Source: Hydrogenophilus sp. (lineage in GTDB: Bacteria > Pseudomonadota > Gammaproteobacteria > Burkholderiales > Thiobacillaceae). From it: a DNA stretch of 61,029 nt. The notes under the pieces are model-generated. The model did no database searches, had not been told where the DNA came from, and was given only the letters and a program-made list of their open reading frames with translations. The position numbers and the translations under genes are program-made. Below, piece by piece: positions 18,010 to 43,988 of this stretch. The stretch is from the NCBI GenBank assembly GCA_020725265.1, contig DYFK01000020.1, positions 1 through 61,029 of the forward strand, written 5' to 3'. The stretch's first letter is position 1. Each line of letters starts with the position of its first letter.

Positions 18010-20922
18010 ATGCCATCGATGCCCTGTTTCATCCACGCCTCCGCGAGCCTGCTGATGCTCTTCGCCGCCATCGTCCAGGCCGCGCCGAACGTATCGACGC
18101 AACCGGTCCTGCGCGTCGAAACCGGCAATCATCTGTCCATGTTGACCCGGATCAGCACCGATGGGCGCTATCTGGTGACCGCATCCGAGGACAAGACCGT
18201 GCGTGTCTGGAGCGCCCAGAGCGGAAGGCCGCTCGCGGTGCTGCGCCCCCCGGTTGGCGAGGACAGTCTGGGCGCCATCTATTCGGCGGTCATCTCGCCG
18301 GATGGCGAAACCATCGCGGCGGGTGGCTATTCAGCTTTCGACGGCCGCCAGCACGCGCTTTATCTGTTCGATCGCGCCAGCGGAACGATGCGCAAGAACG
18401 GGGTGCTGCATGGTCTGGAAGCGCCGGTGCAACAGCTCGCCTGGTCGCCGGACGGACGCTATCTCGCGGTCGGCCTGCGCCAGCAGGGCCTGCGCATCTT
18501 CCATGCCAATCTCAAATACCTGGGCGGTGACGAGGCCTACAACGATGCCATTTTCGGCCTCGATTTCGCGCCGGATGGCCGGCTCGCGGCAGCCAGCCTG
18601 GATGGTTCGCTACGGATGTACGAACTATCCGGCAACCGCCTGGAACGTGTCGCCCGCCAACGGCTGCCAGACGATGCCCGCCCCTATGGCGTCGCCTTCT
18701 CGCCGGACGGCCGCATGCTCGCGGTCGGCCACGCCGATGCCGCCCGCGTCGACATTCTCGACAGTTCGCGCCTGTCCGTGCGCCATCGGGCGAGTCATTC
18801 GGGCAGCGGCAATCTCGGCCGCGTCGCCTGGTCCGCCGATGGTCGTCGCCTGTACGCCGGCGGCACCGCTGGCGGCCGCCGGGGATTCAGCCTGCTGGCG
18901 TTCGACGATGGCGGCCGCGCCAGCGCCGACGAGATCGCGCGTTTCGACAACATCATCGTGTCACTGGCGGCAATGCCCGATGGCGGCGTCGCCGTCGGCA
19001 GCGCCGAACCCTCCTGGGCGATCTTCGACGCCGGCGGCAAACTCAGGCTCCAGCAGAAACGCGGCGCCGCCGATTTCCGCGATGCCGAGGACAGCTTCCA
19101 GGTCTCCGACGACGGTCAGATCGTCAGCTTCCCGCTCGAACGCAATGGCCGCGATCGGGTCACCTTCGATGCCCGCACCGGTGAATTAAGTAACCGGGAA
19201 GGAGAAAACCTGCGCGCGCCGCTGGAACGCGCCCGGGGTATCGATGTGCGTGACTGGAAAAATGGCGCCAACCCCAAACTGAACGGCCGCCCGCTTGGCC
19301 TGCCCCCTCACGACCTGGCGCGCAGTCTGGCGGTCAGCCATGCCGGCGACGGTTTCGTGCTCGGCTCGGAATGGTACTTGCGCCATTACGACGGCAATGG
19401 CGGCAAACGCTGGGAGCGGCGCGCGCCGGCGGCGGTCTGGGCGGTCAACATCAGCGCCGACAACCGCTGGGCGATCGCCGGCCTCGGCGACGGCACCATC
19501 CGCTGGTACCGACTGCGCGACGGCGCCGAACAGATCGCGCTGTTCCCTCATCCCGACCGGGAGCGCTGGTTGCTCTGGCTGCCAAGCGGCCACTATGACA
19601 CCTCGGTGGGCGGGGAAGATCTCATCGGCTGGCACGTCAATCTGGCCTTCAACCGGGCATCCGAGTTTTACCCGGTCGGCCGTTTCCGCAAGCATTACTA
19701 CCTACCCGGTGCCCTGCGCGCGACCTTCGCCAGCGCCGACGCGGCCGCCGCGTTGCGCCAGGCGCGCGCGGAAATCGCGCGCGACACCCGTGTCCAGAAC
19801 CCGCCAGCCGAGCCGGCGGTCACGCGAATCCTGCCGCCGACCATCGAATTGCGCGGCGATCGCGAAATCGCCACCAGCGACTCGCGGGTCAAGCTCCGGT
19901 TCGCGTTGCAAAGTCCGGCCGACGCCCCGGCCAGCAACGTCAAGGTCCGCGCCAACGGCCGTCTGGTCAACGACCTGACCGACCGGCAACTGCGCGGCAA
20001 GGGCGATGTCGAGATCACGGTGGCGCTGCCACCCGATCCCGACACCGAAATCACCCTGATCGCGCGCAACCGCCATGGCGCCTCCGAGCCGGCGACCGTG
20101 CACGTCAAACGCGAACCGACGACACCGGTTTCCACCGCGCCTTCCAGACAACCCGACAGCCCGCGGACACCGATGTACCGGAAGCTGTACGTGCTCGCGG
20201 CGGGCATCTCCGATTACCCGAAGTTGCGGCCGGAATTCCAGTTGAAATTTCCGTCCAAGGACGCCAACGACTTCGTCGGCATCCTAGGCAAGCAGGTCAA
20301 CACGCTCTATGGCGATGCCGAAATCCGCCTGCTGGTGAACGCCCAGGCGGATCGCAAGAACGTGCTCGAAGGTCTGAAATGGCTGCGCGAGAAGGTCGGC
20401 CCGGACGACATGGGCGTGCTGTTCCTGGCCGGTCATGGATTCATGCTGCGCAACGGCTATTACTTCGCGCCCTCCGACCTGGATCTGGCCAGCGACGATA
20501 CCGGCATCAAGACCGGCGTGCCCGGCTCGGCGATCCAGGAGACCCTGGCCAATCTGAAGGGGCGCGGAGTCTTTTTCCTGGACACCTGCCATTCCGGATT
20601 CGCCTTGTCCGAACTCCGGATCAATACCGACATGACCGGCGCGCTCAACGACATGGGCGACGAGAAGGCGGTCGTGGTGATGGCGGGCTCGGCCGGCCGG
20701 CAAAGCGCGGCGGAAGCGGATGAATGGAACAACGGCGCCTTCACCAAGGCCATCCTGGAAGGGCTCAAGGGCAATGCCGACTATGCCCGGACCGGACGCA
20801 TCACCCCACCGCTGCTGCATTCCTATGTCAGCACCCGGGTCAAGAAGATGACCGACAATCAGCAAACCCCGAAAATGGTCGGCGCCGTATTCGACGAACC
20901 CATCGCGGTGGTCCGCAAATGA
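18010..20922 (+). CDS. Secreted WD40-repeat protein with C-terminal caspase-family domain
   Basis: From ATG 18010 (GAGGA 9 nt upstream) the protein has 970 residues with a signal peptide (SASLLMLFAAIVQA). About residues 35-520 form WD40-type blades (DGRYLVTASEDKTVRVWSAQSGRPL, WSPDGRYLAVG, FSPDGRMLAVG). Then comes an Ig-like segment with PPTIELRGDREIATSDSRV. The C-terminal peptidase C14 caspase domain (about 720-960) has an intact dyad: His809 in FLAGHGF and Cys860 in FLDTCHSG. Active-site residues argue for a working cysteine protease. The substrate is unknown. It is followed after 28 bp by a lipoprotein gene. Confidence 0.88.
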   Translation: MPSMPCFIHASASLLMLFAAIVQAAPNVSTQPVLRVETGNHLSMLTRISTDGRYLVTASEDKTVRVWSAQSGRPLAVLRPPVGEDSLGAIYSAVISPDGETIAAGGYSAFDGRQHALYLFDRASGTMRKNGVLHGLEAPVQQLAWSPDGRYLAVGLRQQGLRIFHANLKYLGGDEAYNDAIFGLDFAPDGRLAAASLDGSLRMYELSGNRLERVARQRLPDDARPYGVAFSPDGRMLAVGHADAARVDILDSSRLSVRHRASHSGSGNLGRVAWSADGRRLYAGGTAGGRRGFSLLAFDDGGRASADEIARFDNIIVSLAAMPDGGVAVGSAEPSWAIFDAGGKLRLQQKRGAADFRDAEDSFQVSDDGQIVSFPLERNGRDRVTFDARTGELSNREGENLRAPLERARGIDVRDWKNGANPKLNGRPLGLPPHDLARSLAVSHAGDGFVLGSEWYLRHYDGNGGKRWERRAPAAVWAVNISADNRWAIAGLGDGTIRWYRLRDGAEQIALFPHPDRERWLLWLPSGHYDTSVGGEDLIGWHVNLAFNRASEFYPVGRFRKHYYLPGALRATFASADAAAALRQARAEIARDTRVQNPPAEPAVTRILPPTIELRGDREIATSDSRVKLRFALQSPADAPASNVKVRANGRLVNDLTDRQLRGKGDVEITVALPPDPDTEITLIARNRHGASEPATVHVKREPTTPVSTAPSRQPDSPRTPMYRKLYVLAAGISDYPKLRPEFQLKFPSKDANDFVGILGKQVNTLYGDAEIRLLVNAQADRKNVLEGLKWLREKVGPDDMGVLFLAGHGFMLRNGYYFAPSDLDLASDDTGIKTGVPGSAIQETLANLKGRGVFFLDTCHSGFALSELRINTDMTGALNDMGDEKAVVVMAGSAGRQSAAEADEWNNGAFTKAILEGLKGNADYARTGRITPPLLHSYVSTRVKKMTDNQQTPKMVGAVFDEPIAVVRK

Positions 20923-21634: not shown

Positions 21635-22486
21635 TCAGTCCCCACCGCAGCCGCCGCGCGGGTCCGGCCTGAAGCAGAACTCGCCCATCAGGCTGCTCGA
21701 CTCCCAGGGAATCTGGGTCAGCTTGGTTTCATGAGCGACCCCGATGCGCACTTGCTTGAGCATCTTCTCGATGGTCTGGCCGGGCTTGTCGATGTTTTCC
21801 AGCAAGTGTTTGGCATAAATGCTGTTGCGCGCGCCCTCGCCGTCCGAAGCCAGTGATCCGGGCGAGGTCGAGAACGCCACCACGGTCCCGCCTGGCGCCT
21901 GCAAGGGCGCGAGCCCGCCCGTTGCCCTTTCGGTCTCCGCCGCCAACCCGCGCGTGCGCGCCCGCCGCGCGTCAGCGAGTTTGGCGGCCCCCCCAGTGAA
22001 TGGATTGTCCCGACAGGCGTCGACGATGATGATGTTGATACCCTTGCGCATGCCGGCAAGACGCTCGACCACTTCGGTCAGATCGATGGCGCGGCTGGCC
22101 AGATCCTCCTCGCCCTGGATTTCGAGATCGACCGGAATCAGATAATTGCGGCCCCGCCATTGCACGCCATGGCCGGCGAAATAGATCAGTCGGACATCGC
22201 TGCGCTCAGCGCGCGCGAGATAGCTCCGAAACGCGGAAACCATGGCCGCCTGATTGGCGTTCTCCTCAAGTCGGACCCGGAACCCCAGCCGGTTCAGCGA
22301 TTCGTTCAACGCGGTCGCGTCCCGCACCGGGGTACGCAGGCGCGCGCCGCGATACTCCGCGTTGCCGATCACCAGCGCGGTCCGGATTTCCTTGCCGCGC
22401 GTAGCCTGCGCCAAGGCATCCGACCACGACATCACCGCCAGCAGGAAAATGCCAAGCCAGGCCGGCCACCACCGAAACACCATCAA
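21635..22486 (-). CDS. Caspase-family (peptidase C14) exported protein
   Basis: The protein has 283 residues with a signal peptide ending near SDALA. The caspase fold covers most of the rest: RTALVIGNAEYRGARLRTPVRDATAL, then IYFAGHGVQWRGRNYLIPVD with catalytic His106, then IIIVDACRDNPF with catalytic Cys158, then VAFSTSPGSLASDG. Both dyad residues are present. Its start lies 2 bp after the stop of the anti-sigma gene, so it is the third gene of a sigma/anti-sigma/caspase operon. The domain resembles metacaspase-like proteins common in multicellular or biofilm bacteria. Confidence 0.9.
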   Translation of the reverse strand: MMVFRWWPAWLGIFLLAVMSWSDALAQATRGKEIRTALVIGNAEYRGARLRTPVRDATALNESLNRLGFRVRLEENANQAAMVSAFRSYLARAERSDVRLIYFAGHGVQWRGRNYLIPVDLEIQGEEDLASRAIDLTEVVERLAGMRKGINIIIVDACRDNPFTGGAAKLADARRARTRGLAAETERATGGLAPLQAPGGTVVAFSTSPGSLASDGEGARNSIYAKHLLENIDKPGQTIEKMLKQVRIGVAHETKLTQIPWESSSLMGEFCFRPDPRGGCGGD

Positions 22487-22487
22487 C

Positions 22488-23096
22488 TCAGTGCCCCTCC
22501 ACCGGCAGGCGCTCGACCAGCGCGACCGCCTCCACCTGATCGTTATTGATCAGCACATCGCGTACCGAGCTGGCGGCCACGCCGGTAACCAGCAGGTAAT
22601 ACTCACCGAGATGGCTGGGACCGGCCACGATCTCCGCGGATACCTCGCGAAGCAACTGGCGCATGTCGAACTCCCGGATATCGGGATTGAAGGACACCCG
22701 CAGGAACGGCTCATGCGCGATATCGCCAGGATGCGCGGTACGGAAGCCCGCGTAATCCTCCTCACCGTGCCGCCCGCCCCAAAGGTTGAAAATGACCACG
22801 GACTGGGCGACCAGCAACACCGCCATCGCGGCGAACACGGGGCGCGACGGCACCAGACCGGCCAACCATGCCCAGGCCGCCTCGAAACCGGATCCGCGCC
22901 GGACCCGACGCTCCTCCGTATCCTGCCGACGAATGCGGGCAACGACATGCCCCAAGCCATCATCTTCCGGCACGTTGGTCATCGCGGTGGCGATCACCGC
23001 GCGCCGAACCGCGTCTTCCCAATCATTGGCTCGGGCCTTGTCCCCGTTCGTGGGGCCGGGTCGTTCAGTTCGCTGTTCCATGTTCGTGATACCCAT
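22488..23096 (-). CDS. Putative anti-sigma factor (single-pass membrane protein)
   Basis: From ATG 23096 the protein has 202 residues; ATG 23081 is an alternative. About 90 cytoplasmic residues are followed by one membrane helix (VFAAMAVLLVAQSVVIFNLWGG) and a periplasmic domain of about 90 residues. This is the topology of membrane anti-sigma factors. It overlaps the end of the ECF sigma gene, the usual genetic pairing. I see no zinc-binding HxxxCxxC motif, so it would be a non-ZAS type. The identification rests on context and topology. Confidence 0.7.
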   Translation of the reverse strand: MGITNMEQRTERPGPTNGDKARANDWEDAVRRAVIATAMTNVPEDDGLGHVVARIRRQDTEERRVRRGSGFEAAWAWLAGLVPSRPVFAAMAVLLVAQSVVIFNLWGGRHGEEDYAGFRTAHPGDIAHEPFLRVSFNPDIREFDMRQLLREVSAEIVAGPSHLGEYYLLVTGVAASSVRDVLINNDQVEAVALVERLPVEGH

Positions 23097-23670
23097 GTCG
23101 TGAGCCCATCGTCGCCTTGACGCAGCGCAACAAATTCGTGCGGGCATAAGCCAGACGGCTCTTCACCGTGCCATCCGGGATGTTCAACAATTCAGCGATC
23201 TCCGCGACCGACATATCCTCGAAGTGCAGCAGATGCAGGCATTCGCGATGCGCCGGTGAAAGTTTCTCGATACAGACCGCCAGCATGGCGCTGGTTTCCT
23301 TGTCCGCCACCTCATCGAAGACGCTGTGTCGTTCGTCCTCGATGACTTCCGCCAGATCGTCGATATCCTCGTGGGCGGCTTCCCGTCGCGACCGGATGGA
23401 CATCAACAATTTGTTTCTGGCGATGCCGAGCACCCAGGTGGAGACTCTTGCCTCGCCCCGATACCGGCCCGCGCTGTTCCAGATTTCATACATCGTGTCC
23501 ATCATGATCTCCCTGGCCACTTCGGGATTGTCGATAGACCGGCATACAAACGCGAACACCCGTCTCGACAGCATCCGGTACAGGGTCTCGAACGAGGTCT
23601 GACAGCCATTGCCCACGCGCAACAACAATCCTCGCGCCTGCTCGTCGTCGATTCGCCGTATCGTGCTCAT
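23065..23670 (-). CDS. ECF-family RNA polymerase sigma factor
   Basis: From ATG 23670 the protein has 201 residues. Region 2 shows FETLYRMLSRRVFAFVCRSI...AREIMMDTMYEIW and STWVLGIARNKLL. Region 4 shows LSPAHRECLHLLHFEDMSVAEIAELLNIPDGTVKSRLAYAR. It is the first gene of the sigma/anti-sigma/caspase operon and lies next to the repeat-protein gene at 23855, a plausible target. A direct repeat AATAGCCGG occurs twice in its upstream region (23703-23711, 23727-23735). It might be an autoregulatory site. Confidence 0.93.
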   Translation of the reverse strand: MSTIRRIDDEQARGLLLRVGNGCQTSFETLYRMLSRRVFAFVCRSIDNPEVAREIMMDTMYEIWNSAGRYRGEARVSTWVLGIARNKLLMSIRSRREAAHEDIDDLAEVIEDERHSVFDEVADKETSAMLAVCIEKLSPAHRECLHLLHFEDMSVAEIAELLNIPDGTVKSRLAYARTNLLRCVKATMGSRHGYHEHGTAN

Positions 23671-23804
23671 AGGTTGCGGTAATCCGGGATTGGGTTCATC
23701 GAAATAGCCGGTTTTTTTCGAACGGCAATAGCCGGCTTGCAAGGAACGGGGAGGATAAATGAAATCGTCGAAACTTTGACCATGCCGACATCCCGCGACC
23801 AGCA

Positions 23805-23835
23805 TGAAAAACGCCGGCATCAGCCGGCGCTTTTC
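23805..23835 (-). terminator. Rho-independent terminator after the 12-repeat protein gene
   Basis: A perfect 7-bp stem (CGCCGGC / GCCGGCG, 4-nt loop) is flanked by A-rich and T-rich runs, so it could act in both directions. It lies about 20 nt past the stop of the minus-strand gene at 23855. Confidence 0.8.
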
Positions 23836-23854: not shown

Positions 23855-25027
23855 TCAGTTGTTGCCGATGTTGACCTTCTGCGTGTTCAGCATGCCCCCA
23901 CCGCCTTGGATGACCGTGCCCACGGAAACCGCGGTGGAACCGGAGTTGGCATTGCCGATGTTGACCTGCTGGGTATTCAGCAAGCCGGCCTGCCCCTGGA
24001 TCACGGCGCCAACGTTGACGTTCGAGGTTCCGCCCGAAGCATTGCCGATTTTCGCCTGCTGATTGTTCAGCAAGCCCGCCTGACCCTGCACCACGGTACC
24101 GACGTTGACGTTGGAACGACCGCTACCCGAGGCATTGCCCACCTGCATGGTCTGATTGTTCAACAACCCGGCCTGGCCCTGCACCGCCGCGCCCATGTTC
24201 ACGTTCGAGGAGCCCTGGCCGCTGGCCTTGCCGATTTGCATGTCCTGGTTGTTCAGCAGGCCCGCCTGCCCCTGCACCGCCGCGCCGATGGCGACGTTGC
24301 TCTTGGCGTTGCCGGAAACATTGCCGATTTCCATGTTCTGGCGTTGCAGCAATCCGGCCTGGCCCTGCACCACCGCGCCGGCCTTGACGTTGCTGGAACC
24401 GGTGCCGCTGACACCGCCGACGTTCATGTTCTGTGAATTCAACAAGCCGGCCTGACCCTGGATGACCGCGCCGGCGTTGACGTTGGATTTACCGGTACCG
24501 GAGACCGCGCCCAGGTTCATTTCTTGCTTGTTGAGCAGGCCCGCCTGCCCCTGCACGACCGTGCCGACATTGACCGTCGACTTGCCACGATCAGCATCAC
24601 CCACCCGCATCTTCTGGGTATTCAGCAATCCGGCCTGCCCCTGAGTGACGCTTCCCGCCTTGACCGAGGCACTGCCACCCTGATTGGCGTTGCCCAGCGA
24701 CATTTCCTGATTGTTCAGCAACCCCGCCTGGCCTTGGGTAACGTTGCCGACATTGACGCTGGTCTTGCCGCCAGCGGCATTGCCGACCGACATCTTCTGC
24801 TTGTTGAGCAAGCCGGCCTGGCTCTGGTTGACGTTGGAAACATTGACGTTCGACTTGCCTCCCGCGCGGGCATTGCCGAGGTCCATTTCCTGCTTGTTCA
24901 ACAGTCCGGCCTGACTCTGGTTGATATTTTGGGTCTGAACTTTCGACTGAGAACCGGATTGGGCGGCGGCAGTGCCGGAAACGGCAACGGCCAGCGCCAG
25001 TACGATTGCTTTGGTGGTGAATTTCAT
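23855..25027 (-). CDS. Secreted protein of 12 tandem N/Q/G-rich repeats, putative functional amyloid subunit
   Basis: The protein has 390 residues with a signal peptide ending at AAAQ. After a conserved opening (SGSQSKVQTQN) it is built entirely from 12 repeats of 30-31 residues. Their core is Q-G-Q-A-G-L-L-N-x-Q-x-M-x-(L/V/I)-G, followed by a G/S-rich turn and S-N-V-N-V-G. The repeats hold no Cys, Trp, Tyr or Phe. This regular beta-strand/turn pattern with aligned Asn and Gln resembles curli (CsgA/CsgB) subunits in style, though the spacing differs from canonical curlin repeats. A good ribosome site (AAAGGGA) and a following terminator indicate high expression. The paralogue at 28331 shares its N-terminus. 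Confidence 0.75.
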   Translation of the reverse strand: MKFTTKAIVLALAVAVSGTAAAQSGSQSKVQTQNINQSQAGLLNKQEMDLGNARAGGKSNVNVSNVNQSQAGLLNKQKMSVGNAAGGKTSVNVGNVTQGQAGLLNNQEMSLGNANQGGSASVKAGSVTQGQAGLLNTQKMRVGDADRGKSTVNVGTVVQGQAGLLNKQEMNLGAVSGTGKSNVNAGAVIQGQAGLLNSQNMNVGGVSGTGSSNVKAGAVVQGQAGLLQRQNMEIGNVSGNAKSNVAIGAAVQGQAGLLNNQDMQIGKASGQGSSNVNMGAAVQGQAGLLNNQTMQVGNASGSGRSNVNVGTVVQGQAGLLNNQQAKIGNASGGTSNVNVGAVIQGQAGLLNTQQVNIGNANSGSTAVSVGTVIQGGGGMLNTQKVNIGNN

Positions 25028-25152
25028 TTCGCTATCCCTTTCCGCGTGATGCCGGCCTGCGATCTACTCGCGGCCGGACTGAAACCGAAACGGCATCGCC
25101 GTCCTGCCAATAGGTTGCGAGAAACCACCAACCGGTTCAACGCGATGATTGC

Positions 25153-25869
25153 TCAGATGCGATCGATATTGCCGGCGCCATTAATGCTCTTGGTCACCCG
25201 TGCCTTGCCGGCGTATTCGATGTTGCCAGCTCCCTCGATCGAGGCTTTCAGGGTTTCCTCGGCGCGTACGCGGATATCGCCGGAGCCATCGATGCTTGCC
25301 TCGACGCGCCGGGCCGTGAATTTGACGGCATCGATGGTACCCGCGCCATCGATGCTGGCGTTCAGGGTTGTCCCCTCACCAGATACGCTGATGTTTCCGG
25401 AATCGATGATCCTTAGAGTCAGGCCACGTGGCTTCAGGTTGGCGAGATCGATGTTGCCACTACCCCCGGCCTGAATGTCGATATCGCCGCCGCTGAAACC
25501 GCTGACCGATGCATTGCCACTCGACAGGGTTTTCAGCGAGCGAAAACCTCGTATCGTCACCGAGTAGCGAATGCCCTTGTCGGTCCGGAAACTGCCCTTG
25601 GTTTTCAGGGTCAGGGTGTCCCCACGAACCACGGCCTCGAGTTTCGCCAGCACTTTTGGCTCGGCTTCGATGATCACCTTTTCATCCTGGCCGGGACGAA
25701 TGGTCAGCTCACCGGGCGCATCCATGACCACCCTGGTCACACCCGGCGTCGCCGTGGTCATGCGCTCGAGCCCGGCGGCCTGAGACATCCCCGTCAATCC
25801 AAATATCATCGCCATCAAAACGACCCGAAAATTGCTGAAAACCATTCGTGTCCCACTCATCCAGGTCAT
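25153..25869 (-). CDS. DUF2807 (GIN-domain) exported beta-helix protein
   Basis: From ATG 25869, with a strong GAGGAGAG site, the protein has 238 residues and a signal peptide ending at about MSQA. The mature part has the short alternating pattern of the head-GIN (DUF2807) fold: GVTRVVMDAPGELTIRPGQDEKVIIEAEPKVL, then many SGSGDI / GAGNI-like turns (GGSGNIDLANL, SGNISVSGEGTTLNASIDGAGTIDAV). The fold is a right-handed beta-helix whose role is unknown. It sits between the CsgG-like gene cluster and the 12-repeat gene, so it may be a surface or periplasmic accessory of the amyloid-like proteins. Confidence 0.85.
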   Translation of the reverse strand: MTWMSGTRMVFSNFRVVLMAMIFGLTGMSQAAGLERMTTATPGVTRVVMDAPGELTIRPGQDEKVIIEAEPKVLAKLEAVVRGDTLTLKTKGSFRTDKGIRYSVTIRGFRSLKTLSSGNASVSGFSGGDIDIQAGGSGNIDLANLKPRGLTLRIIDSGNISVSGEGTTLNASIDGAGTIDAVKFTARRVEASIDGSGDIRVRAEETLKASIEGAGNIEYAGKARVTKSINGAGNIDRI

Positions 25870-25910
25870 GACGCTCTCCTCGTATCGACTTGAACGCCCC
25901 GGACCGTCGG

Positions 25911-26258
25911 TCAATTGGCGGTCAGGATGCACAAGCCCTGTTTCAGATCCAGCACGGTGATGTCCGAGTCGCCGTTGCGCGGCACGTTGACCGCCACCGA
26001 ACCACCGGAAACCGTGCCCCGGAAGCCGCTGCCCTCGTAGAGCAGGCGACCTTCCTGCCAGCACCGCAGGGTCTGCCCGCCCTGGCGTCGGGTGTCCTGA
26101 ACCACGGGCGAGGAACCGGCATCCTTGAACAAGGGCATCGGCGGCGCCATTTCGACGGCGCCGGCACGCTTGATCTCCGGACCGGCCAAGGCCGGCAGAC
26201 TGATCATGACCAGCGCCGCCGTCATGAACGACAGGGAAACATGTTTTGATGCGCTCAT
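25911..26258 (-). CDS. Small exported protein of unknown function
   Basis: The protein has 115 residues with a GGGAGAG ribosome site and a signal peptide ending at LPALA. The mature part has two cysteines (LRCWQEGRLLYEG and QGLCILTAN) that could form a disulphide bond, and short beta-strand-like segments (GGSVAVNVP, DITVLDL). I do not recognise a family. It is 18 bp downstream of the CsgG-like lipoprotein gene, so it is probably an accessory factor of that system, comparable in size and position to CsgE/CsgF-type helpers. That comparison is positional only. Confidence 0.65.
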   Translation of the reverse strand: MSASKHVSLSFMTAALVMISLPALAGPEIKRAGAVEMAPPMPLFKDAGSSPVVQDTRRQGGQTLRCWQEGRLLYEGSGFRGTVSGGSVAVNVPRNGDSDITVLDLKQGLCILTAN

Positions 26259-26276
26259 ATCGCTCTCCCTGATCGC

Positions 26277-27830
26277 TTACCGGACGATGACCGAGAACTT
26301 GCCGGCACCGAACGATGAACCGGCTGCCTGCTGGAATTCGGCCTCGACCTCGGCCATGGACTTGACGCCCAGCGCCTCGAAGTCCCCGGCGCCGACCTTG
26401 GGCGACAGATCCGCGAACACGTCCCGGTTCGCCGCGTAACAGGCGATTTCCTCGCGCGCGCCGATGCTGTTGGCGTAGATATGGAATTCCCCGCCCTTGG
26501 GCAACCGGATGCCTTTCGCGGAAATGAACGGATCGCGCGCGAAGCGGTTCGGGAAGAAACGCATGATGTCCTTGTTCTCGTCCTGCATGAAGCAATAGAC
26601 AAAGGCATCCCGACTCGGCTTGATGTTCAGGAAGATCTCCTCGCCACGCTTGAAGTTGTTGCCGCTCTTGACCGCGTTCACCGTCAGGTTGATGGGCCGG
26701 GTGTCCTTCTGCGCCTGGGTCGCCGCCTTCGCGGTCGGAGTCTGATAACCGGCCAGGATGCCCTGGGCCTTCTCGGCGACTTCGTAATGGTTGGCGGACA
26801 AGTAGGCGGTGAAGAATTCCAGGTCGAGCTTGGCGTTCTTTTCCATGCCCAGCGCCTCGCGATAGGCCATGATGGCATCGCGCAGACCATCGTCCGGCAC
26901 GCCCGTGACTTCACCGGCGTAGAGGCCGCGGATGCGCATCTGATTCTGCCAGTACGCGACGAATTCGCCCGGCTCGGCGAACAGGCTCTGATACCAGTCG
27001 CTGATCTCCGTGGCGATGGCCTCGTCCTTGACGTCGGCGCCCAGACAGGTCCAGTACGGGGTCTTGGTCAGCTTGCCGAACAGCTCGACGGTGGCCAGTT
27101 GCACCAGATTGCGCAACGCCTGGGCCATGCCGTCGGAACGCGACAGGTTCATCTGATAGTTGATGCCGAACTTCTTGTAGCCGGCTTCGGCTTCCAGACC
27201 GCTGCCGGAACGCATGATGGTGACCGAGTTGTTGGACATGACACCAGGGATGATGGTCAGGTCGGCGGTGTTCATCATGGTCAGGTCCAGGCCGAGGATG
27301 GTCGCCGCCGCCGTCGCCGCCTTGCCGATGCCGCCGAACGGCTCGATGGCGATGCCACCGCCCTCGGTCTTCTTGGCGATGTTCTCGTCGAGTTGGGAAA
27401 TGGAACCGCGGATGCCGAACTGCGGCAGCACCTGGAACATGCTCTTCTGTTCCGCCTGCTGCATGAAGGTGATCAGGTTGGCGGAATCCTGGCCGAAGGC
27501 GATCAGCTTGATGGCGCGGCTGCGCTTGGTCATTTCCGACACGGAGGTGATCAGCATGTCCTTGGTGCCGGCGGAAACCTTCTTGGTCTTGTCCTCGATA
27601 TCCTCGGTGATGACGACGATGTCGCGAATGCCGTACATCAGGAAGGTGTTGTCCATGCAACGCAGGGACGGCGTGAAATTGGTCACGCTGCGCACGGGCG
27701 AGGCTTCCGGCCCAGTCCGCAGATCCTCGGTCATCTTGGTGGTGTCCTGGCGGATCGCCTGCTCGCTTGCGCAGCCGCCCATCAGGATCAGGAAGGTGGA
27801 GGCGAGTAGCGCCAGTTTCTTCTTGTGCAT
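26277..27830 (-). CDS. CsgG-like outer-membrane lipoprotein with C-terminal DUF4384 domain
   Basis: From ATG 27830 (GGGGA 7 nt upstream) the protein has 517 residues with a lipobox LMGGCAS. About residues 45-265 resemble CsgG/HfaB: NTFLMYGIRDIVVITEDIED, VLPQFGIRGSISQLDENI, then a Gly-rich stretch and LTIIPGVMSNNSVTIMRSGSG... VQLATVELFGKL. These have the order of the CsgG barrel-forming hairpins and closing helix. The C-terminal part is a DUF4384 domain (about 375-480: FKRGEEIFLNIKPSRDAFVYCFMQDENKDIMRFFPNRF). CsgG forms the oligomeric pore that exports curli subunits. With repeat-protein genes on both sides, I infer that this is their secretion channel. The CsgG assignment is by pattern, not search. 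Confidence 0.65.
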   Translation of the reverse strand: MHKKKLALLASTFLILMGGCASEQAIRQDTTKMTEDLRTGPEASPVRSVTNFTPSLRCMDNTFLMYGIRDIVVITEDIEDKTKKVSAGTKDMLITSVSEMTKRSRAIKLIAFGQDSANLITFMQQAEQKSMFQVLPQFGIRGSISQLDENIAKKTEGGGIAIEPFGGIGKAATAAATILGLDLTMMNTADLTIIPGVMSNNSVTIMRSGSGLEAEAGYKKFGINYQMNLSRSDGMAQALRNLVQLATVELFGKLTKTPYWTCLGADVKDEAIATEISDWYQSLFAEPGEFVAYWQNQMRIRGLYAGEVTGVPDDGLRDAIMAYREALGMEKNAKLDLEFFTAYLSANHYEVAEKAQGILAGYQTPTAKAATQAQKDTRPINLTVNAVKSGNNFKRGEEIFLNIKPSRDAFVYCFMQDENKDIMRFFPNRFARDPFISAKGIRLPKGGEFHIYANSIGAREEIACYAANRDVFADLSPKVGAGDFEALGVKSMAEVEAEFQQAAGSSFGAGKFSVIVR

Positions 27831-27876
27831 CACGGATTCCCCAAAAAGATCGCGTCAGCCAGACAGCCGCACGGGG

Positions 27877-28215
27877 TTATTTGCAATTGGCCGTGTTGAT
27901 GACCGGCCCGGTGATGATGGTGGTGCTTTGCTTGCCGAACATCTCGCGGATGCCACTGTTGCTCTTCGGCGCATTGTTGCTGTTGATATTGATCGAACAA
28001 TCGCCGCCGCTGCTGCCGTCGGGACCGCGTCCGGAACGCATGCCATCGGCGATGGTGCCGCCACGCCGGGATTTCTCCTTCATGATCTTGGCGGTGATGT
28101 CCATGTCCATGTCCGGCGATTCCGGGTTGGGCACGGGCGGGCTGGCCTGCGCAGCACCGATACCTACCGACAAGGTGGCACTGGCGAGAACGATGAGAAT
28201 GGCGGATTTCTTCAT
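27877..28215 (-). CDS. Small exported protein, possible amyloid accessory/minor subunit
   Basis: From ATG 28215 the protein has 112 residues with a signal peptide ending near AAQA. The mature part has an acidic PDMDMDITAKIM segment, a Gly/Arg-rich turn and a C-terminal Asn/Ser/Thr-rich half (CSININSNNAPKSNSG, TTIITGPVINTANC) with two cysteines. Small size, N/S/T-rich strands and position between a repeat-protein gene and the CsgG-like gene recall HfaA/CsgF-like helpers of hfa and csg loci. I cannot claim homology. Confidence 0.65.
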   Translation of the reverse strand: MKKSAILIVLASATLSVGIGAAQASPPVPNPESPDMDMDITAKIMKEKSRRGGTIADGMRSGRGPDGSSGGDCSININSNNAPKSNSGIREMFGKQSTTIITGPVINTANCK

Positions 28216-28252
28216 GATTTGCCTCTTTTTTGGCCGGCCCATCAGACAGGCA

Positions 28253-28319
28253 CGCCGGACTCCGTAGGCTCAGGCGGAGTCCGGCGCTTGAAGCCCGTGT
28301 CGGGCCGAAGCCCGACACG
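28253..28319 (-). other. Two strong tandem hairpins between the repeat-protein gene and the next gene
   Basis: Read on the minus strand, the first hairpin has a perfect 10-bp stem (CGTGTCGGGC / GCCCGACACG) closed by a TTCG tetraloop, at 28319-28296. The second has a perfect 12-bp stem (CGCCGGACTCCG / CGGAGTCCGGCG, 10-nt loop) at 28286-28253. Neither is followed by a T-run. They lie just past the stop of the 6-repeat gene and before the next gene of the same strand. They may partly stop transcription or protect the 3' end of the subunit mRNA, so that the subunit is made in excess. Confidence 0.6.
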
Positions 28320-28330
28320 TATACCCCACC

Positions 28331-28966
28331 TTATTGCGCGTTACCGATGTTGGCTTTCTGCTCGTTCAGCAAACCGGACTGGGTCTGGTTCACGCTCTTG
28401 ATGTTGACGTTGGACTTGCCACCACCAGACGCGTTGCCGATGTTCATTTCCTGCTTGTTCAGCAGACCAGATTGCTTCTGGTTGATAGTGCCGACAACGA
28501 CCTTCGATTCGCTACCCTTGCCCGAGGCGTTACCCACCGCCATCTTCTGCTCGTTCAGCAAACCGGACTGGGTCTGGTTGACGTTCTTGATATCAACATT
28601 GGACTTGCCGCCAGCGGAGGCGTTGCCCAGCTTCATGTCCTGTTTGTTCAGCAGGCCGGATTGGGTCTGGTTGACAGTGCCAACCGTGACCTTGGACTCG
28701 CTGCCCGCGCCAGCGGCGTTGCCGATCGCCATCTTCTGCTGGTTCAGCAAGCCGGATTGCTTCTGGTTCACGTTCTGGATGTTGACGTTGGACTTGCCAC
28801 CGGCCTTGGCGTTACCCAGGTCCATTTCCTGCTTGTTCAGCAGACCGGACTGGGTCTGGTTCAGGTTCTGCAACTCGACTTTCGACTGCGAGCCGGACTG
28901 CGCGGCGGCGACGGAAGACAGAGTGGCGGCGACGGCGATGGCGATGATTTTGGCGGTGAATTTCAT
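28331..28966 (-). CDS. Secreted protein of 6 tandem N/Q/G-rich repeats, putative functional amyloid subunit
   Basis: From ATG 28966 (GGAAG site) the protein has 211 residues with a signal peptide ending at AAAQ. It consists of six repeats of 31-32 residues with core NQTQSGLLNKQxMxLGNA. Two types alternate: one ends GGKSNVNI, the other GSESKVxVG, so the true unit is a dimer of about 63 residues present three times. There are no aromatic residues or cysteines in the repeats. The opening SGSQSKVELQNLNQ is shared with the 12-repeat paralogue at 23855 and might be a secretion or nucleation signal. It is the first gene of the minus-strand run leading to the CsgG-like gene, so it should be strongly expressed. 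Confidence 0.75.
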   Translation of the reverse strand: MKFTAKIIAIAVAATLSSVAAAQSGSQSKVELQNLNQTQSGLLNKQEMDLGNAKAGGKSNVNIQNVNQKQSGLLNQQKMAIGNAAGAGSESKVTVGTVNQTQSGLLNKQDMKLGNASAGGKSNVDIKNVNQTQSGLLNEQKMAVGNASGKGSESKVVVGTINQKQSGLLNKQEMNIGNASGGGKSNVNIKSVNQTQSGLLNEQKANIGNAQ

Positions 28967-29028
28967 GGTTACTTCCTTTCCCTTAAAAGTGGACGAGAGC
29001 AAAGCGCCCTAGCTGCGACTGCGGTTGA

Positions 29029-29042
29029 ACGCACGTGTGCGT
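29029..29042. promoter_or_regulatory. Inverted repeat in the upstream region of the 6-repeat protein gene
   Basis: ACGCAC-GT-GTGCGT forms a perfect 6-bp inverted repeat about 65 bp upstream of the 28966 start, in the 190-bp gap that must carry this operon's promoter. It could be an operator. No clear -35/-10 pair could be assigned. Confidence 0.3.
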
Positions 29043-29156
29043 CTGATTCTGTGTTGCTCGTCTTCTCCATGCGGTTCAAATAAAAAACAACTTTTTTAAC
29101 GCAGTCCGCAGGCGCGGATTATCGGCCCAACGCGAAGAATCACAAGTGCATTCATG

Positions 29157-29843
29157 TTACGGGCCAATGGAAATTTCGGTGGCCTGATTCAGCAGGTCAT
29201 CGGTATCGAGCCGGACCGGTCCCTGGGGCAGGGTTTTCATCATCTCCTGGACCAGGTAGGCAACCCGCCCCTCGCGCGAGGCGTTGGCGTGCGCGAGTAG
29301 GTTCAGCAACATGTTGATCGGATCCAGTTGCCATTGCCGGTGCGCGGTTCGCCACTGCTCCGTGCGCCAGAGCACCTTGCCGCTGTCGGCATGGACCAGG
29401 CGCAAGGAGGTCGAAACCACCACCGCGTCGTACAGACCGGAATGGATGCTGGCGGATTGTTCGATCTGTCCCATCAGGATGGCGTCGGCCTTGAGTTCGC
29501 GGCCCAGCCGCGCCGGCGAGATACCGGCCAACAGGCCGGGGATGGTGATGCCCAGCTTTTCCATGACGCCGCGGACGTGGTCGGCGGATATCCGGGCATA
29601 GCCTTTCGCCGACAGCCGCTCGTACACCTCTTCGTACAGCGCGTCCTCGATGCCGGGTTCCAGCGAGAAATTGTCCATCGGCGCGACCGCGATCGTGGTT
29701 GGCCGCCAGCGTTCGAACTCGGGGTCGACTTCCCAGATTTCCTCATCCGCCTTCTCGGCCGCGCGGAGCGACCCGCTCATCATCAGCAGGAACAACAGCA
29801 ACAACACCCGCGGGAACGTGGTCATGGCCGATCGATCACTCAT
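29157..29843 (-). CDS. DUF799/GNA1162-like exported protein
   Basis: From ATG 29843 the protein has 228 residues; ATG 29825 is an alternative. It has a signal peptide (FPRVLLLLFLLMMSGSLRA). The body follows the pattern of the DUF799/GNA1162 lipoprotein family: RPTTIAVAPMDNFSLE, ...YEEVYERLSAKGYARISADHVRGVMEKLGI, LGRELKADAILMGQIEQSAS and VVVSTSLRLVHADSGKVLWRTEQW. No lipobox cysteine is visible at the signal peptide, unlike typical members. Family members commonly accompany CsgG-like genes, which fits the neighbourhood. It overlaps the MacB-like permease gene by 8 nt, so it belongs to the exporter operon. Confidence 0.7.
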   Translation of the reverse strand: MSDRSAMTTFPRVLLLLFLLMMSGSLRAAEKADEEIWEVDPEFERWRPTTIAVAPMDNFSLEPGIEDALYEEVYERLSAKGYARISADHVRGVMEKLGITIPGLLAGISPARLGRELKADAILMGQIEQSASIHSGLYDAVVVSTSLRLVHADSGKVLWRTEQWRTAHRQWQLDPINMLLNLLAHANASREGRVAYLVQEMMKTLPQGPVRLDTDDLLNQATEISIGP

Positions 29844-31077
29844 GTCGCAATGCCAGAATAGGATCGAGACGGGAAGCCCGCAACGCCGGATAGGCGCCGA
29901 ACAGCAACCCGGCCAGCAAGGACAGCCCGAGCGCCAGCGCAACCGCCCAGGGCGTGACCACGGCCGGCCAGGCGGCCCAGGCGGCGACGCCGAACACCAG
30001 CAGGATGCCGACCAGCACGCCGATGGCGCCGCCGCTGGTGGTCAACAGCACCGCCTCGGCCAGGAACTGCCGCGCGATGTCGGCGCGGGTCGCGCCGAGC
30101 GCGCGGCGCAGGCCGATCTCGCGGGTCCGCTCGGTGACGCTGACCAGCATGATGTTCATGATGCCGACGCCGCCGACCAGCAGCGACAGCAACGCCACCC
30201 CGGCCAGCAGCATGTCGAAGGTGCGCCTGGCCTGGGCGGCCTGCCGGATCAGTTCGCTCGGCACCACCAGGGTGTAGTCGGCGGCGCCGCGGTGACCGAT
30301 GTCGAGCACCCGGGTAACCAGCGCGACGCCGTCCGGCACCCGTTCCGCCGAGCCCATGTCGACCACCAGTTCGTCGAGCGGTCCGGCCGGCGCGATCGCG
30401 GCTTCGGCGCCGAGCGGCAGCAGGATGGCGCGGTCGAAATCACGCATCGCCACCGGCGCGTTGCCGGCGCGGCCGAGATCGCGCCCGCGCAGTACGCCCA
30501 CCACCCGGCAGATGTCGTGACCGATACGGACGTGACCGCCGGGCCTGCCCTCCTCGCCCAGCTCGGCGGCGACGCGGGCGCCGAGCAGGCAGACCAGCCG
30601 GCGCTCGGCCAGATCGAGCGACTGGAAACCGCGGCCAGACTCGATGCCGAGCTGTTGCAGATCCGGATATTCCAGGCTGACCGCGTACAGCGCGGGCGCG
30701 CTCTCCCGCCCCAGGCCGAAAGTGGCCGCCTTGATTTCGCGTAGTTCAGCCACCGCTTCGATGCCAGGCAGCGCTCGCAGGCGGGCGGCATCCTCCGGGG
30801 TCAGGCCACGCGAACCGCGCAAGCGGGCGGCATTCGCCTGCTCCGGCGCCAGGTTGGCGGCGCGCGCCAGGATGTTGCGGGTGCCCAGGCGCTCGATCTG
30901 GGCCAGGGTCTCGCGCTTGGCGCCCTCGCCCATGCTGACCAGCGCCAGCACCGAAACCACGCCGAACAGGATGCCAAGCATGCTCAGGCCGCTGCGCAGG
31001 CGATGCCGCCAGAGCGATTGCAGCGCGAAGCCGAGCATGCCGCGCCAGTGGCGATGTCGATCAAAGGAAACGGCCAT
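29836..31077 (-). CDS. MacB-like ABC transporter permease (FtsX domain)
   Basis: From ATG 31077 the protein has 413 residues. An N-terminal membrane helix (LSMLGILFGVVSVLALVSMGEGAK) is followed by a large periplasmic MacB_PCD domain (about 60-260). A C-terminal FtsX domain has three helices and the signature VGGVGIMNIMLVSVTERTREIGLRRALGA. This is the stand-alone permease version of MacB. Together with the separate ATPase, the adaptor and the TolC-like protein, it forms a complete tripartite exporter. Overlapping starts with the ATPase gene show an operon. Confidence 0.92.
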   Translation of the reverse strand: MAVSFDRHRHWRGMLGFALQSLWRHRLRSGLSMLGILFGVVSVLALVSMGEGAKRETLAQIERLGTRNILARAANLAPEQANAARLRGSRGLTPEDAARLRALPGIEAVAELREIKAATFGLGRESAPALYAVSLEYPDLQQLGIESGRGFQSLDLAERRLVCLLGARVAAELGEEGRPGGHVRIGHDICRVVGVLRGRDLGRAGNAPVAMRDFDRAILLPLGAEAAIAPAGPLDELVVDMGSAERVPDGVALVTRVLDIGHRGAADYTLVVPSELIRQAAQARRTFDMLLAGVALLSLLVGGVGIMNIMLVSVTERTREIGLRRALGATRADIARQFLAEAVLLTTSGGAIGVLVGILLVFGVAAWAAWPAVVTPWAVALALGLSLLAGLLFGAYPALRASRLDPILALRHE

Positions 31078-31741
31078 CGCGCAGCTCCAGTTGGCGATGC
31101 GCGCGCCGGGCAACCGCCTCGTCATGAGTCACCAGTACCAGGGTGGCGCCCGTCTGATTGATGGTGGCCAGCAAATCCAGAATCTCCCGACCGGTCGCGG
31201 AATCGAGATTGCCGGTCGGCTCGTCCGCCAGCAGCAGGCGCGGTCGGGTGACCACGGCCCGGGCAATCGCGACGCGCTGCATCTCGCCGCCCGACAGCCG
31301 ATTGGGCGCGTGTCCGGCGCGATGGCCGAGGCCGACCCGATCGAGCGCGGCGTCGACCGCCGCATCGATCCGGTCCGGATCGCGAAACTCCGGTTTCTCG
31401 GCATACAGGAACGGCAGCGCGACGTTGTCGCGCGCGCTCAGTTCGGCGAGCAGATGAAAACTCTGGAAGACGAAACCGACGTCGTTGGCGCGAAATCGCG
31501 ACAAGGCTTCATCGTCGAGCCGGTCCATGGCCTGACCGGCGAACCGGTAGCTTCCAGCGCTGGGCCGGTCGAGACAGCCGAGCAAATGCAGCAGCGTCGA
31601 CTTGCCGGAGCCGGAAGCGCCCCGGATGGCGACGAACTCGCCGGCCTCGACGCGCAGATCGAGGCCGGCGAGCACGTCGACCTCGCGCCCGGCCATGCGG
31701 TAGCGCTTGTCCAGCCGTTCGACCTCGATCAGCGCCGCCAT
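31061..31741 (-). CDS. ABC transporter ATP-binding protein (MacB/LolD type)
   Basis: The protein has 226 residues, a single ATPase domain with [23 protein letters not shown] (Walker A), a Q-loop VFQSFHLL, signature [14 protein letters not shown], Walker [14 protein letters not shown] and H-loop LVLVTHD. The LLGCLDRP and FQSFHLL details are those of the LolD/MacB group. It energises the adjacent FtsX permease. The gene overlaps the permease gene by 17 nt and follows the adaptor gene by 28 bp. Confidence 0.93.
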
Positions 31742-31769
31742 GCCCGCCCCGCCGGTCCGGCCGGTCCGC

Positions 31770-33041
31770 TCATCGGGCCAGACTCACCCGCTCGCCAGGC
31801 GCGATGCCGTCGAGGATCTCCACCCAGTCGAGATTGGAACGGCCGACGCGCACCGGCCGCTTCAGCGGCCCGCTGGCTCCGGCGACCCGGCAATAGCTTT
31901 GTCCGGATTCATGGAACACCGCCGGCACCGGCACCGCGACCACGCCCTCGGCGCGCTCGGAAACGATGCCGACGCGCGCGGTCATGCCCGGACGCAACCG
32001 GGCGTCGTGGCCGACGACGTTCAGGATCAACTGAAAATGCTTGCCGGCGGTCTGTTCGCGCGCGGTCTCCATGGCCAGCACGCCGACCCGCTCGACCCGG
32101 CCCTCGAACACCGTGTCCGGGAACGCCTCGACGCGGATGGTCGCCGCCTGTCCGGGCGCGACCTTGCGCAAATCCTCCTCGCGCACGCGCGCCTTGACGA
32201 TCATGCTCGACACGTCGGGCAGATACAACAGCGGCTGGCCCTGCCAGACGCTGTCGCCGGCGCGCGGCTTGCGGCTCTGGTTGTTCTGGAAGACCTCGTG
32301 CAACACGACGAAACCGCCGGCGGGCGCGGTCAGCACGGTCTTGTCCAGTTCCATGCGCGCCTGTTCCAGCGCCGCCCGGGTGGCCGCGACCTCGTTCTCG
32401 GCCTTGTTGTGTTCCGCCATCGCCCGGGCGATCCGGATCAGGTTGTCCTTGTGCAGACGCTCCAGGTCGGATTCGGCCTTCTGCAGGTTGGCGAACGCTT
32501 GCTCGGCCTTGCGCCGGGCCTGAACGATCTCGCTGTCGACCGCGTGCCCCTGCTGGCGCAGCGCCTCCAGATCGCGGATGTAGGCCTGGTAGGGCACGTA
32601 TTCCTGTTGCGCCTTCTTGCGGTCGAACTCGGCCTGTTCATGGGCCCGTTCGGCCTGCGAGCGTTCCATCTCCACGCCCTTGGCGGCGAACTCGGCGGCC
32701 GCCAGGCGGCTGCCGAGTTCGCCCTCCAGTCGCTGGATCTCGGCCTCGAACGGTGACGCGTCGAAGCGCACCAATTCCTCGCCGGCGCGCACCTGGGCGC
32801 CATCCTCGACGATCCGCAGGATCTTGCCCCGGTCGCCGCGCAGGGCCGAGGCGACGTGATAGGCGCGCGCGGCATCGAGCACACCGACGGTTTCGACGCC
32901 GATCTCGAAATCGATGCGCTCGGCGACCGCCCAGCGCGCTTCCGCGACTTCCGGCGCGGGCGCGCGCCATAGCCAGAATCCGGCGGCCGGCAGTGCCACC
33001 AGCAACAGCCCGGCAATCCATTTGTAAGAAGATGGTTTCAT
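31770..33041 (-). CDS. MacA/HlyD-type periplasmic adaptor
   Basis: From ATG 33041 (ATGA overlap with the TolC-like gene) the protein has 423 residues. It has an N-terminal signal anchor (WIAGLLLVALPAAGFWLW), a first lipoyl half (GKILRIVEDGAQVRAGEELVRFD), a coiled coil (about 90-215) and a second lipoyl half (LTAPAGGFVVLHEVF). A beta-barrel and a membrane-proximal domain (RPGMTARVGIVSERAEGVVAVPVPAVF) follow. It would link the MacB-like permease to the TolC-like channel. The substrate is unknown; the setting suggests an envelope protein, lipoprotein or peptide. Confidence 0.9.
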   Translation of the reverse strand: MKPSSYKWIAGLLLVALPAAGFWLWRAPAPEVAEARWAVAERIDFEIGVETVGVLDAARAYHVASALRGDRGKILRIVEDGAQVRAGEELVRFDASPFEAEIQRLEGELGSRLAAAEFAAKGVEMERSQAERAHEQAEFDRKKAQQEYVPYQAYIRDLEALRQQGHAVDSEIVQARRKAEQAFANLQKAESDLERLHKDNLIRIARAMAEHNKAENEVAATRAALEQARMELDKTVLTAPAGGFVVLHEVFQNNQSRKPRAGDSVWQGQPLLYLPDVSSMIVKARVREEDLRKVAPGQAATIRVEAFPDTVFEGRVERVGVLAMETAREQTAGKHFQLILNVVGHDARLRPGMTARVGIVSERAEGVVAVPVPAVFHESGQSYCRVAGASGPLKRPVRVGRSNLDWVEILDGIAPGERVSLAR

Positions 33042-34465
33042 CGCGCGTTTCCGTTTTTCCAGGGCGCGCGTTCCAGCAGCAGGCTGGCCGAGGCCCACAA
33101 CCGGTAGACGCCGACGGCATGGTCGATCTCGCTGCCGAGCAGCGCGGCGCGCGCGCGCTGAAGCTCGATCTCCGCCTCGATCACGTCGAAATTGTTGGCG
33201 AGATCGTGGGTGAACTTGGTTTCCGCCAGCGCCAGCTTGCCCTCGGCGACCCGGATCTGCTCCGCCCGCAGACGCTTGCGCTGTTCGATTTCCCGCAATT
33301 GCAGGCGCTGCTGGCGAATCTGCCGGCGAACCTCCTGGGCGCGGGACTCCAGGCTCAGACGCAGCGATTCCACGCGCAGACGGGCGCGGCGCAGGGCCTC
33401 CTTCTCGGCGCTGCGGTACAGGTCGGTGGAGGCCTGGAGATACACACCCCATTGCCGCTGGGTGCTCGACAGGTTCTGGCTGAGCACCGGGTCGGTGGTA
33501 TAGAACTGGCCGTAATTGACCACCAGATTCAGGTCCGGCAACACCCGGTTCTCCGCGACCACGACGGCGCGTTCGGCTTCCTCGATGTCGGCGCGGGTCT
33601 GGCGCAGGTCCAGACGCCGGTCGAGCGCGGCCGCCTCGATATCCTCGTCCGGCATTGGCGGCGGCGCCGCCGGCAAGGTCTCGAAATCGCGCTCCAGCGG
33701 CCATTCCAGCAACAGCCTGAGCCGGTTCATGGCGTGTTCCCGGGCATTGCGCGCCTGATCGAGTTGCTCCTCGGCATCCTTGAGCCGGATTTCGGCGCGA
33801 TAGGTATCCATCGGACTGGCCAGCCCCACCTTTTCCTTGCCGCGCGCCAGCATGGCATGCCGGGCAAGCCGATCGCGCACCTTGCCGTTGAGCTCCATCA
33901 GACGTTCCTGCCGTAGCGCCTCGTGGTAAATGGCGATGGTTTCCAGCGCGACGTCGGCCGCCGCCTGTTCGACATTCCGGCGCGAGAGTTCCAGTCCATA
34001 TTCCGCGCGACGAACCCCGTCGACACCAATCTCGCGACCGAATCCGCGCAGCAGCGGCTGGTTCAGGCTGGCATTGAGCGTGGTGTTGCTGGTGCCAGCC
34101 GACTGGTTGTAGGACGGCCCCACGCTCAACTGGGTACCGGACTCGAATTTCCTGGCCAGGCTGATGCCGTAGCTGTTGTTGCCGCCGGCGTTGGCGATAT
34201 CGCCGCCCAGGCGCCCGAGCGAAATGGCGGGAACGATGCGGGTATCGAACTCCGAGCGCGCCGAAGCCAGCGCATGTTGCTCGCTTTCCAGCAGCAACCT
34301 GGCGCCGATGATCGTCTTGTTGGCGGACAGCGCGGCATCCACGGCCGCCGACAGGCTCAGTGGTTCGGCATGGGCGTGGGCCAGGCCAAGGCTGGCGCAC
34401 AGCAGCCAAGACCCGATACTCCGGCGCAAGCGACGGAATATCCGGCAACCGGATGTCTGGATCAC
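33038..34465 (-). CDS. TolC-family outer-membrane efflux channel
   Basis: The protein has 475 residues with a signal peptide ending at AHAHA. Two tandem OEP-type halves show the long heptad-rich helices of TolC, such as LDQARNAREHAMNRLRLLLEW and EKEALRRARLRVESLRLSLE. Beta-strand segments lie between them (QLSVGPSYNQSAGTSNTTLNASLNQPLLRGFG, DLNLVVNYGQFY). It is the first gene of the tolC-macA-ATPase-permease-DUF799 operon and supplies the outer-membrane exit. It might also serve the LapB/LapC exporter, which has no local TolC partner. Confidence 0.9.
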   Translation of the reverse strand: MIQTSGCRIFRRLRRSIGSWLLCASLGLAHAHAEPLSLSAAVDAALSANKTIIGARLLLESEQHALASARSEFDTRIVPAISLGRLGGDIANAGGNNSYGISLARKFESGTQLSVGPSYNQSAGTSNTTLNASLNQPLLRGFGREIGVDGVRRAEYGLELSRRNVEQAAADVALETIAIYHEALRQERLMELNGKVRDRLARHAMLARGKEKVGLASPMDTYRAEIRLKDAEEQLDQARNAREHAMNRLRLLLEWPLERDFETLPAAPPPMPDEDIEAAALDRRLDLRQTRADIEEAERAVVVAENRVLPDLNLVVNYGQFYTTDPVLSQNLSSTQRQWGVYLQASTDLYRSAEKEALRRARLRVESLRLSLESRAQEVRRQIRQQRLQLREIEQRKRLRAEQIRVAEGKLALAETKFTHDLANNFDVIEAEIELQRARAALLGSEIDHAVGVYRLWASASLLLERAPWKNGNAR

Positions 34466-43974: not shown

Positions 43975-43988
43975 GGCCATACCTCCTG

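Follow-up and report, generated by a model that had tools for sequence, protein, structure and literature searches.

The described systems closest to the locus considered here are curli, the Caulobacter holdfast anchor HfaABD and the Fap fibres of Pseudomonas. For curli, a minimal repeat X6QXGX2N (PMC3521004), an X6QX10Q kernel typical of most curlins with a repeat length of 23 +/- 5 residues (PMC10192328), and the CsgG constriction residues Tyr66, Asn70 and Phe71 (PMC7304575) have been reported; HfaABD pairs a CsgG-like protein with amyloid-like partners (PMC6707917), and Fap has three repeats (PMC12822426). A recent survey of curli and Fap seeks curlin repeats at most 5 kb from other curli genes (PMC12822426), and a Flavobacterium curlin has been reported in an Accumulibacter enrichment (PMC12019908). 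Within a stretch of 61,029 nucleotides from Hydrogenophilus sp. (contig DYFK01000020.1; hereafter the window, meaning all of the DNA that was analysed) we have found a cluster of six genes that, on balance, probably serves to export solenoid fibre subunits by a dedicated CsgG-type route and to assemble them on the cell surface, with helpers of its own.

A conserved six-gene cluster

The gene cluster is real and conserved. Its six genes lie on the minus strand at 23855-28966 in the order rep6, small1, CsgG-like lipoprotein, small2, DUF2807, rep12, with intergenic gaps of 18-125 bp, and each is where an earlier reading of the letters by a model (the sequence-only reading) had placed six open reading frames (ORFs) on one strand. 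The features are as follows.

28331-28966, minus strand: rep6, exported 6-repeat protein of 211 residues, modelled as a six-rung beta-solenoid (ORF, repeats, AlphaFold2)
28252-28319, minus strand: two strong RNA hairpins directly 3' of rep6 (z -4.4 for 28240-28340)
27877-28215, minus strand: small1, small exported protein with the C-terminal end TIITGPVINxxNCK (ORF and homologues)
26277-27833, minus strand: CsgG-like lipoprotein of 518 residues, with a predicted CsgG fold, a peptidoglycan (PG)-binding-like region and DUF4384 (Pfam, model, hhalign)
25911-26258, minus strand: small2, small exported protein with the motifs LRCWQxGRLLYEGxGF and GLCIL (ORF and homologues)
25153-25869, minus strand: DUF2807 exported protein (PF10988, 4e-36)
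23855-25027, minus strand: rep12, exported protein of 390 residues with 11 clean repeats and a degenerate twelfth (ORF, repeat scan)
23812-23829, strand not assigned: terminator-like hairpin 3' of rep12 (z -5.4)

The hairpin pair 3' of rep6 may set rep6 output above that of the downstream genes. For small1, the ATG at 28215 (MKKSAIL, with AGAGG upstream) is a more likely start than the possible alternative at 28242, and the lipoprotein starts at a GTG or, alternatively, at the ATG at 27830.

The complete order of the six genes recurs in five other genomes (L015-L018 and L045), and in L014, which starts inside the CsgG-like gene, the order continues from there; a scan of named genomes supplied five relative loci (Accumulibacter sp., two Azoarcus sp. 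and two Betaproteobacteria metagenome-assembled genomes). This recurrence, together with the repeat shuffles given below, rules out chance or artefact as the origin of the cluster. Among 399 sampled genomes of the taxonomic order, the CsgG-like profile was found in 19 (E <= 1e-15; three of these, G000, G076 and G080, were rows of the query profile), whereas the repeat profile and small2 were each found in 8, these being the same 8 genomes and all inside the 19. There is no case of the repeat without a CsgG-like gene in this sample, and the lipoprotein is modelled as CsgG (see below), so that neither of the two outcomes named by the sequence-only reading as fatal to its export model was seen. 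Fisher tests of the co-occurrence of repeat, small2 and CsgG-like gene give 5e-12, and 2.5e-7 by genus, with relatedness ignored and with three draws of 399 treated as one sample (the listed handles agree). In the phylum the CsgG-like profile was found in 19 of 398 genomes, of which 13 lie outside the order; the rest are the window genome and five more members of the order.

We also counted genes across 39 relative loci (L012-L018, L045-L063 and L092-L104; three genomes give two loci each, and several loci end at a contig edge), leaving out the window's own row, which is centred on a caspase-DUF4384 ORF, and G013, whose gene is cut by the contig end (L011, L019). Small1 was present in 26 of these loci, small2 in 19, DUF2807 in 13, this repeat in 13, an OmpA-domain gene in 23 and a caspase or CHAT gene in 11, where the small1 and small2 models were partly trained on the loci counted, the small1 model was blurred by a training row that was out of frame (L016), and the OmpA model was generic. 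Models trained on the window and L011-L018 alone recovered repeat, small1, CsgG-like and small2 genes in L045, L048, L049, L050, L052 and L053; the L053 CsgG-like gene is broken across frames, and the small1 match there falls within a long ORF overlapping the repeat gene. We note that other secreted tandem-repeat proteins, with repeats mostly unlike those of the window, adjoin the CsgG-like gene in several loci that lack this repeat (L012, L046, L051, L057, L093, L094, L096 and L097), and that under the filter used no tandem-repeat protein was found beside it in L055, L098, L099 and L104.

Repeat proteins and candidate pore

Rep6 carries 6 repeats at a spacing of 31-32 residues; rep12, which had been credited with 12, carries 11 clean repeats at a spacing of 30-31 and a degenerate twelfth. 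The claim that the repeats are 30-32 residues long and free of aromatic residues holds, the mature parts of both proteins being devoid of F, W, Y, H, C and P. The best self-match scores 0.75 (lag 63, two repeats) and 0.48 (lag 31); 1000 shuffles gave no more than 0.23 and 0.19. The repeat consensus, drawn from 89 units of 15 proteins (16 were tried, and L052 gave no unit under the search pattern), is S-N-V-x-[VA]-G-x-V-x-Q-x-Q-[SA]-G-x-x-N-x-Q-x-M-x-[IVL]-G-N-A-x-G; positions Q-2, Q0, G2, Q7, G12 and the hydrophobic residue at 11 were fixed by the search pattern, which left free N+5, whose frequency is 0.89.

The core, QAGLLN or QSGLLN, is an instance of QXGXXN, the minimal motif of curli, which places the repeat closer to curlin than the sequence-only reading allowed when it called it non-canonical; that description is right in that the QX10Q kernel is missing. 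The pattern X6QXGX2N is found at 6 places in rep6 and at 10 in rep12, where shuffles gave at most 4 and 6, and the degenerate curlin pattern of PMC10192328 has 6 and 13 matches; X6QX10Q occurs in neither protein, compared with 7 occurrences in E. coli CsgA and 10 in CsgB. As that reading had anticipated, the repeat also falls outside Pfam curlin, with PF07012 matching none of the 16 repeat proteins at E <= 1.

AlphaFold2, given 18 in-register rows, confidently predicts rep6 to be a six-rung beta-solenoid (predicted local distance difference test score, pLDDT, 84.4; predicted TM-score, pTM, 0.79), each rung having a strand a of mostly 13 residues and a strand b of 6. The N-terminus common to rep6 and rep12 had been taken for a possible secretion signal; in the model it makes up the opening strand of the first rung (residues 27-39), and the idea of a separate signal is not supported. 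The leaders of both proteins appear from their sequences to be of Sec type. E. coli CsgA is eighth among the structure matches of the solenoid (E 0.5, not significant), and the neighbours of the solenoid in the PDB include the non-amyloid solenoids of SufB/D and ice-binding proteins. The repeat profile had no match among PDB sequences, and rep6 had none in a tblastn search of plasmids; a single-sequence search of 100 relatives with rep6 found its own genome only, and the repeat profile reached further. One relative, L018, has at 6760-9170 a repeat head followed by about 500 further residues that run off the contig end and whose C-terminal part has no Pfam match, a putative large solenoid-tipped surface protein.

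The lipoprotein is predicted to have a CsgG fold, but a diverged one. When its AlphaFold2 model, built from nine sequences, was compared with 350,542 chains using Foldseek, ranks 1-23 were all CsgG (E 3e-6 to 1e-4), in keeping with the CsgG-like fold that had been proposed for it, and HpaA and a flagellar-motor ring came next. In the model, helices alternate with strands and are followed by two long strand pairs and then a long helix, which is the order of elements in CsgG. Alignment to E. coli CsgG with hhalign covers 168 columns at 19% identity (P 4e-5). DUF4384 (PF14326, 4e-12) is confirmed, as is the DUF2807 gene; DUF4384 matches 6 of 9 family members (E <= 1, best 1.2e-16), and PG_binding_1, sub-threshold in the window protein (0.013), matches 7 of 9 (E <= 1, best 1.1e-9). 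The positions of Tyr66, Asn70 and Phe71 fall in a gap of the lipoprotein in the hhalign alignment, and a short loop is found in 8 of the 9 rows of the family alignment, which suggests that the candidate pore is probably gated differently from CsgG.

The locus thus resembles curli in its CsgG fold, its QXGX2N-arc subunits, its beta-solenoid model and the placing of pore and subunit genes together. It differs from curli in its rung length (30-32 residues compared with 23 +/- 5; PMC10192328), in a lipoprotein that has an extra PG-binding-like region and DUF4384 and in which the constriction residues are deleted, in the missing QX10Q, and in that CsgE, CsgF and curlin stay below cut-off. In 13 genomes that we chose from the 19 with a CsgG-like gene, none had curlin PF07012 over cut-off (there were two weak matches elsewhere, E 0.12 and 1.0, and the E. 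coli control matched), and none had CsgE or CsgF over cut-off (weak matches elsewhere, CsgF E 0.03 and CsgE E 0.5). Small1 and small2 had no match to E. coli CsgC, CsgE or CsgF, the genomes themselves not having been searched for CsgC/CsgH, and we rejected the candidacy of these helpers as relatives of the three proteins; a match of small2 to CsgB (E 0.003 in a six-sequence search) was taken as noise. With the helpers unmatched, and with CsgE and CsgF over cut-off in none of the 13 genomes, the csg-like layout described by the sequence-only reading therefore ends at pore and subunits. The locus is predicted to work like curli at that level, that is, of a pore and QXGXXN subunits, and is not a csg operon: canonical curli is ruled out by the absence of PF07012, CsgE and CsgF over cut-off and of the QX10Q kernel. 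HfaABD has a CsgG-like protein in common with the locus, and is likened to it by description rather than by sequence. Fap shares with it stacked imperfect repeats, and FapC is the top PDB match of the solenoid, though not a significant one; it differs in that here there is a CsgG-like exporter gene and the repeat numbers are 6 and 12, against three in Fap (PMC12822426).

Proposed export of solenoid subunits and its alternatives

Gene order, co-occurrence, the CsgG-like and solenoid models, and the failure of curlin, CsgE and CsgF to exceed cut-off form the computational basis of the CsgG-type export system that we favour, from which we infer export and amyloid formation. In such a system, rep6 and rep12 would cross the inner membrane by Sec and pass the outer membrane through a ring that the CsgG-like lipoprotein presumably forms. 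Outside the cell the repeats would fold to beta-solenoids, whose rungs of ~31 residues would stack end to end, so forming either fibres like those of curli or a coat on the surface. The pore may be tethered to the wall by its PG-binding-like region, and small1 and small2 could do CsgB/CsgF- and CsgE/CsgC-like jobs (seeding, anchoring, holding subunits unfolded) while bearing no detectable relation to those proteins.

Several points weigh against this reading. Tandem repeats of any kind may be prone to solenoid predictions by AlphaFold2, and against solved structures the top match of the solenoid, FapC, is not significant (E 0.025, probability 0.14). The lipoprotein model is of modest quality (pLDDT 69.8, pTM 0.54), and its TM-scores to CsgG are low (0.37-0.52 by target length, with a root-mean-square deviation of 7.5-15). 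The Pfam CsgG family PF03783, which the sequence-only reading had named as a check, has no match in the window lipoprotein and matches in its own genome at two other places only; it matches 5 of 9 family members (E <= 1, best 3.8e-5). The family profile gave weak PG-binding-type and other matches among PDB sequences and no CsgG at E <= 10. Moreover, 11 of the 19 genomes with the CsgG-like gene are without this repeat, and the roles suggested for small1 and small2 are read from the position of their genes.

It is possible, though on the unlikely side, that the same export system has a product that is no fibre, the solenoids serving as single rods (an adhesin, spacer or coat). A predicted solenoid does not by itself entail polymerisation, as SufB/D and the ice-binding proteins among its PDB neighbours illustrate, and in L018 the repeats are joined to some 500 additional residues; against this, the near-identical rungs of rep6 and rep12, without aromatics, proline or cysteine, are a likeness to fibre subunits, as are the curli arc motif and the CsgG-like pore gene. 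We consider it quite improbable that the CsgG-like protein is instead a periplasmic or outer-membrane scaffold, like others with this fold, and that it is not what exports the repeats. Such a role would suit the constriction residues lying in a deletion, HpaA and the flagellar-motor ring among the fold matches, and the 11 genomes that have the gene and not the repeat. It would sit less well with the two long strand pairs modelled as in the CsgG barrel, with the repeat occurring in no sampled genome without the gene, and with the other repeat proteins beside the gene at several loci; solenoids of many kinds may be clients of the CsgG-like pore family. Exit of the repeats via the neighbouring MacB/ABC/HlyD/OEP set, with the CsgG-like gene incidental, is hardly credible: the set is the immediate upstream neighbour, on the same strand, but homologues of MacB, HlyD and OEP are missing from the 39 relative loci (7 of which have generic ones of the ABC ATPase) and the repeats have Sec-type leaders.

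As far as our searches go, the cluster is undescribed and represents a variant of CsgG-type export: judged by titles and the openings of abstracts, no description of it was found among the papers listed from the accessible open-licence literature (which does not cover bioRxiv preprints), nor any paper there on CsgG together with DUF4384 or with DUF2807, and the accessible portion of PMC12019908 mentions nothing resembling this repeat family. Because the family is not scored by Pfam curlin and CsgE and CsgF are below cut-off, a survey of the type of PMC12822426 would probably miss it; yet the CsgG-like gene turned up in 19 of the 399 genomes sampled from the order and in 19 of the 398 from the phylum. 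If the subunits form fibres, the pore and the QXGXXN arc would be what is indispensable for CsgG-type amyloid export, and CsgE, CsgF and the constriction would be replaceable. The locus would then offer a differently gated CsgG pore and would tie bacterial caspases to surface-fibre assembly.

Caspase, sigma factor and other neighbours

Three genes follow rep12 and are, at least in part, probable companions of the cluster.

23065-23820, minus strand: extracytoplasmic function (ECF) sigma factor, probable companion (Pfam and relatives)
22488-23147, minus strand: single-pass membrane protein, putatively anti-sigma-like (position and layout)
21635-22486, minus strand: exported caspase-family (C14) peptidase with GHG and DAC motifs, probable companion (motifs, search)

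Because the first ATG of the ECF ORF lies in the terminator-like hairpin, translation likely begins at a later start codon. The trio of ECF sigma factor, membrane protein and caspase comes after rep12 both in the window and in L045, which is from another family and has a homologue of the membrane protein at the same place. C14 genes lie at most 13 kb from the CsgG-like gene in 7 of the 13 chosen genomes against 0.29 expected (P 1e-9), and in 5 of 11 when one genome per genus is taken (P 2e-6); the 13-kb limit was set after seeing the data and the window genome is counted in the 13. As the other six genomes show no nearby caspase, the figure becomes 7 of 19. The window also encodes a caspase-CsgG fusion (35752-37452, GHG and DAC motifs present) and, adjoining it, a caspase-DUF4384 fusion (37463-39067, dyad motifs absent), which together argue for a tie between the modules. 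We note further a WD40-repeat protein of 985 residues with caspase-type GHG and DTC motifs (17965-20922), a relative of which lies near the CsgG-like gene in L013 (L013:11098-14052), and, in L016 (7070-10390), a TPR-CHAT protein of 1107 residues immediately behind the second repeat gene, a place taken by a caspase in other loci.

An unlikely but more far-reaching proposal is that the locus represents a further class of functional amyloid, beside curli and Fap, in which a wall-anchored, differently gated CsgG pore and long-rung solenoid subunits are joined to a caspase-ECF loop. The exported caspase would cut stalled subunits or the membrane anti-sigma factor, as a quality-control loop, and the ECF sigma factor would thereby sense the state of fibre export.

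On the other side of the cluster, the window holds at 29157-34465 the MacB, ABC ATPase, HlyD and OEP set, on the same strand and with a GNA1162-like gene at its end. The DUF799-like neighbour that the sequence-only reading had placed just beyond the cluster is this gene (PF05643, 9e-10), which overlaps the end of the MacB gene; it is present as described, but as none of the 39 relative loci has a homologue of it next to the CsgG-like gene (E <= 1e-3), it is ruled out as a member of the cluster. Further along, two overlapping ORFs of the Hsp20 family lie side by side at 43026-44496.

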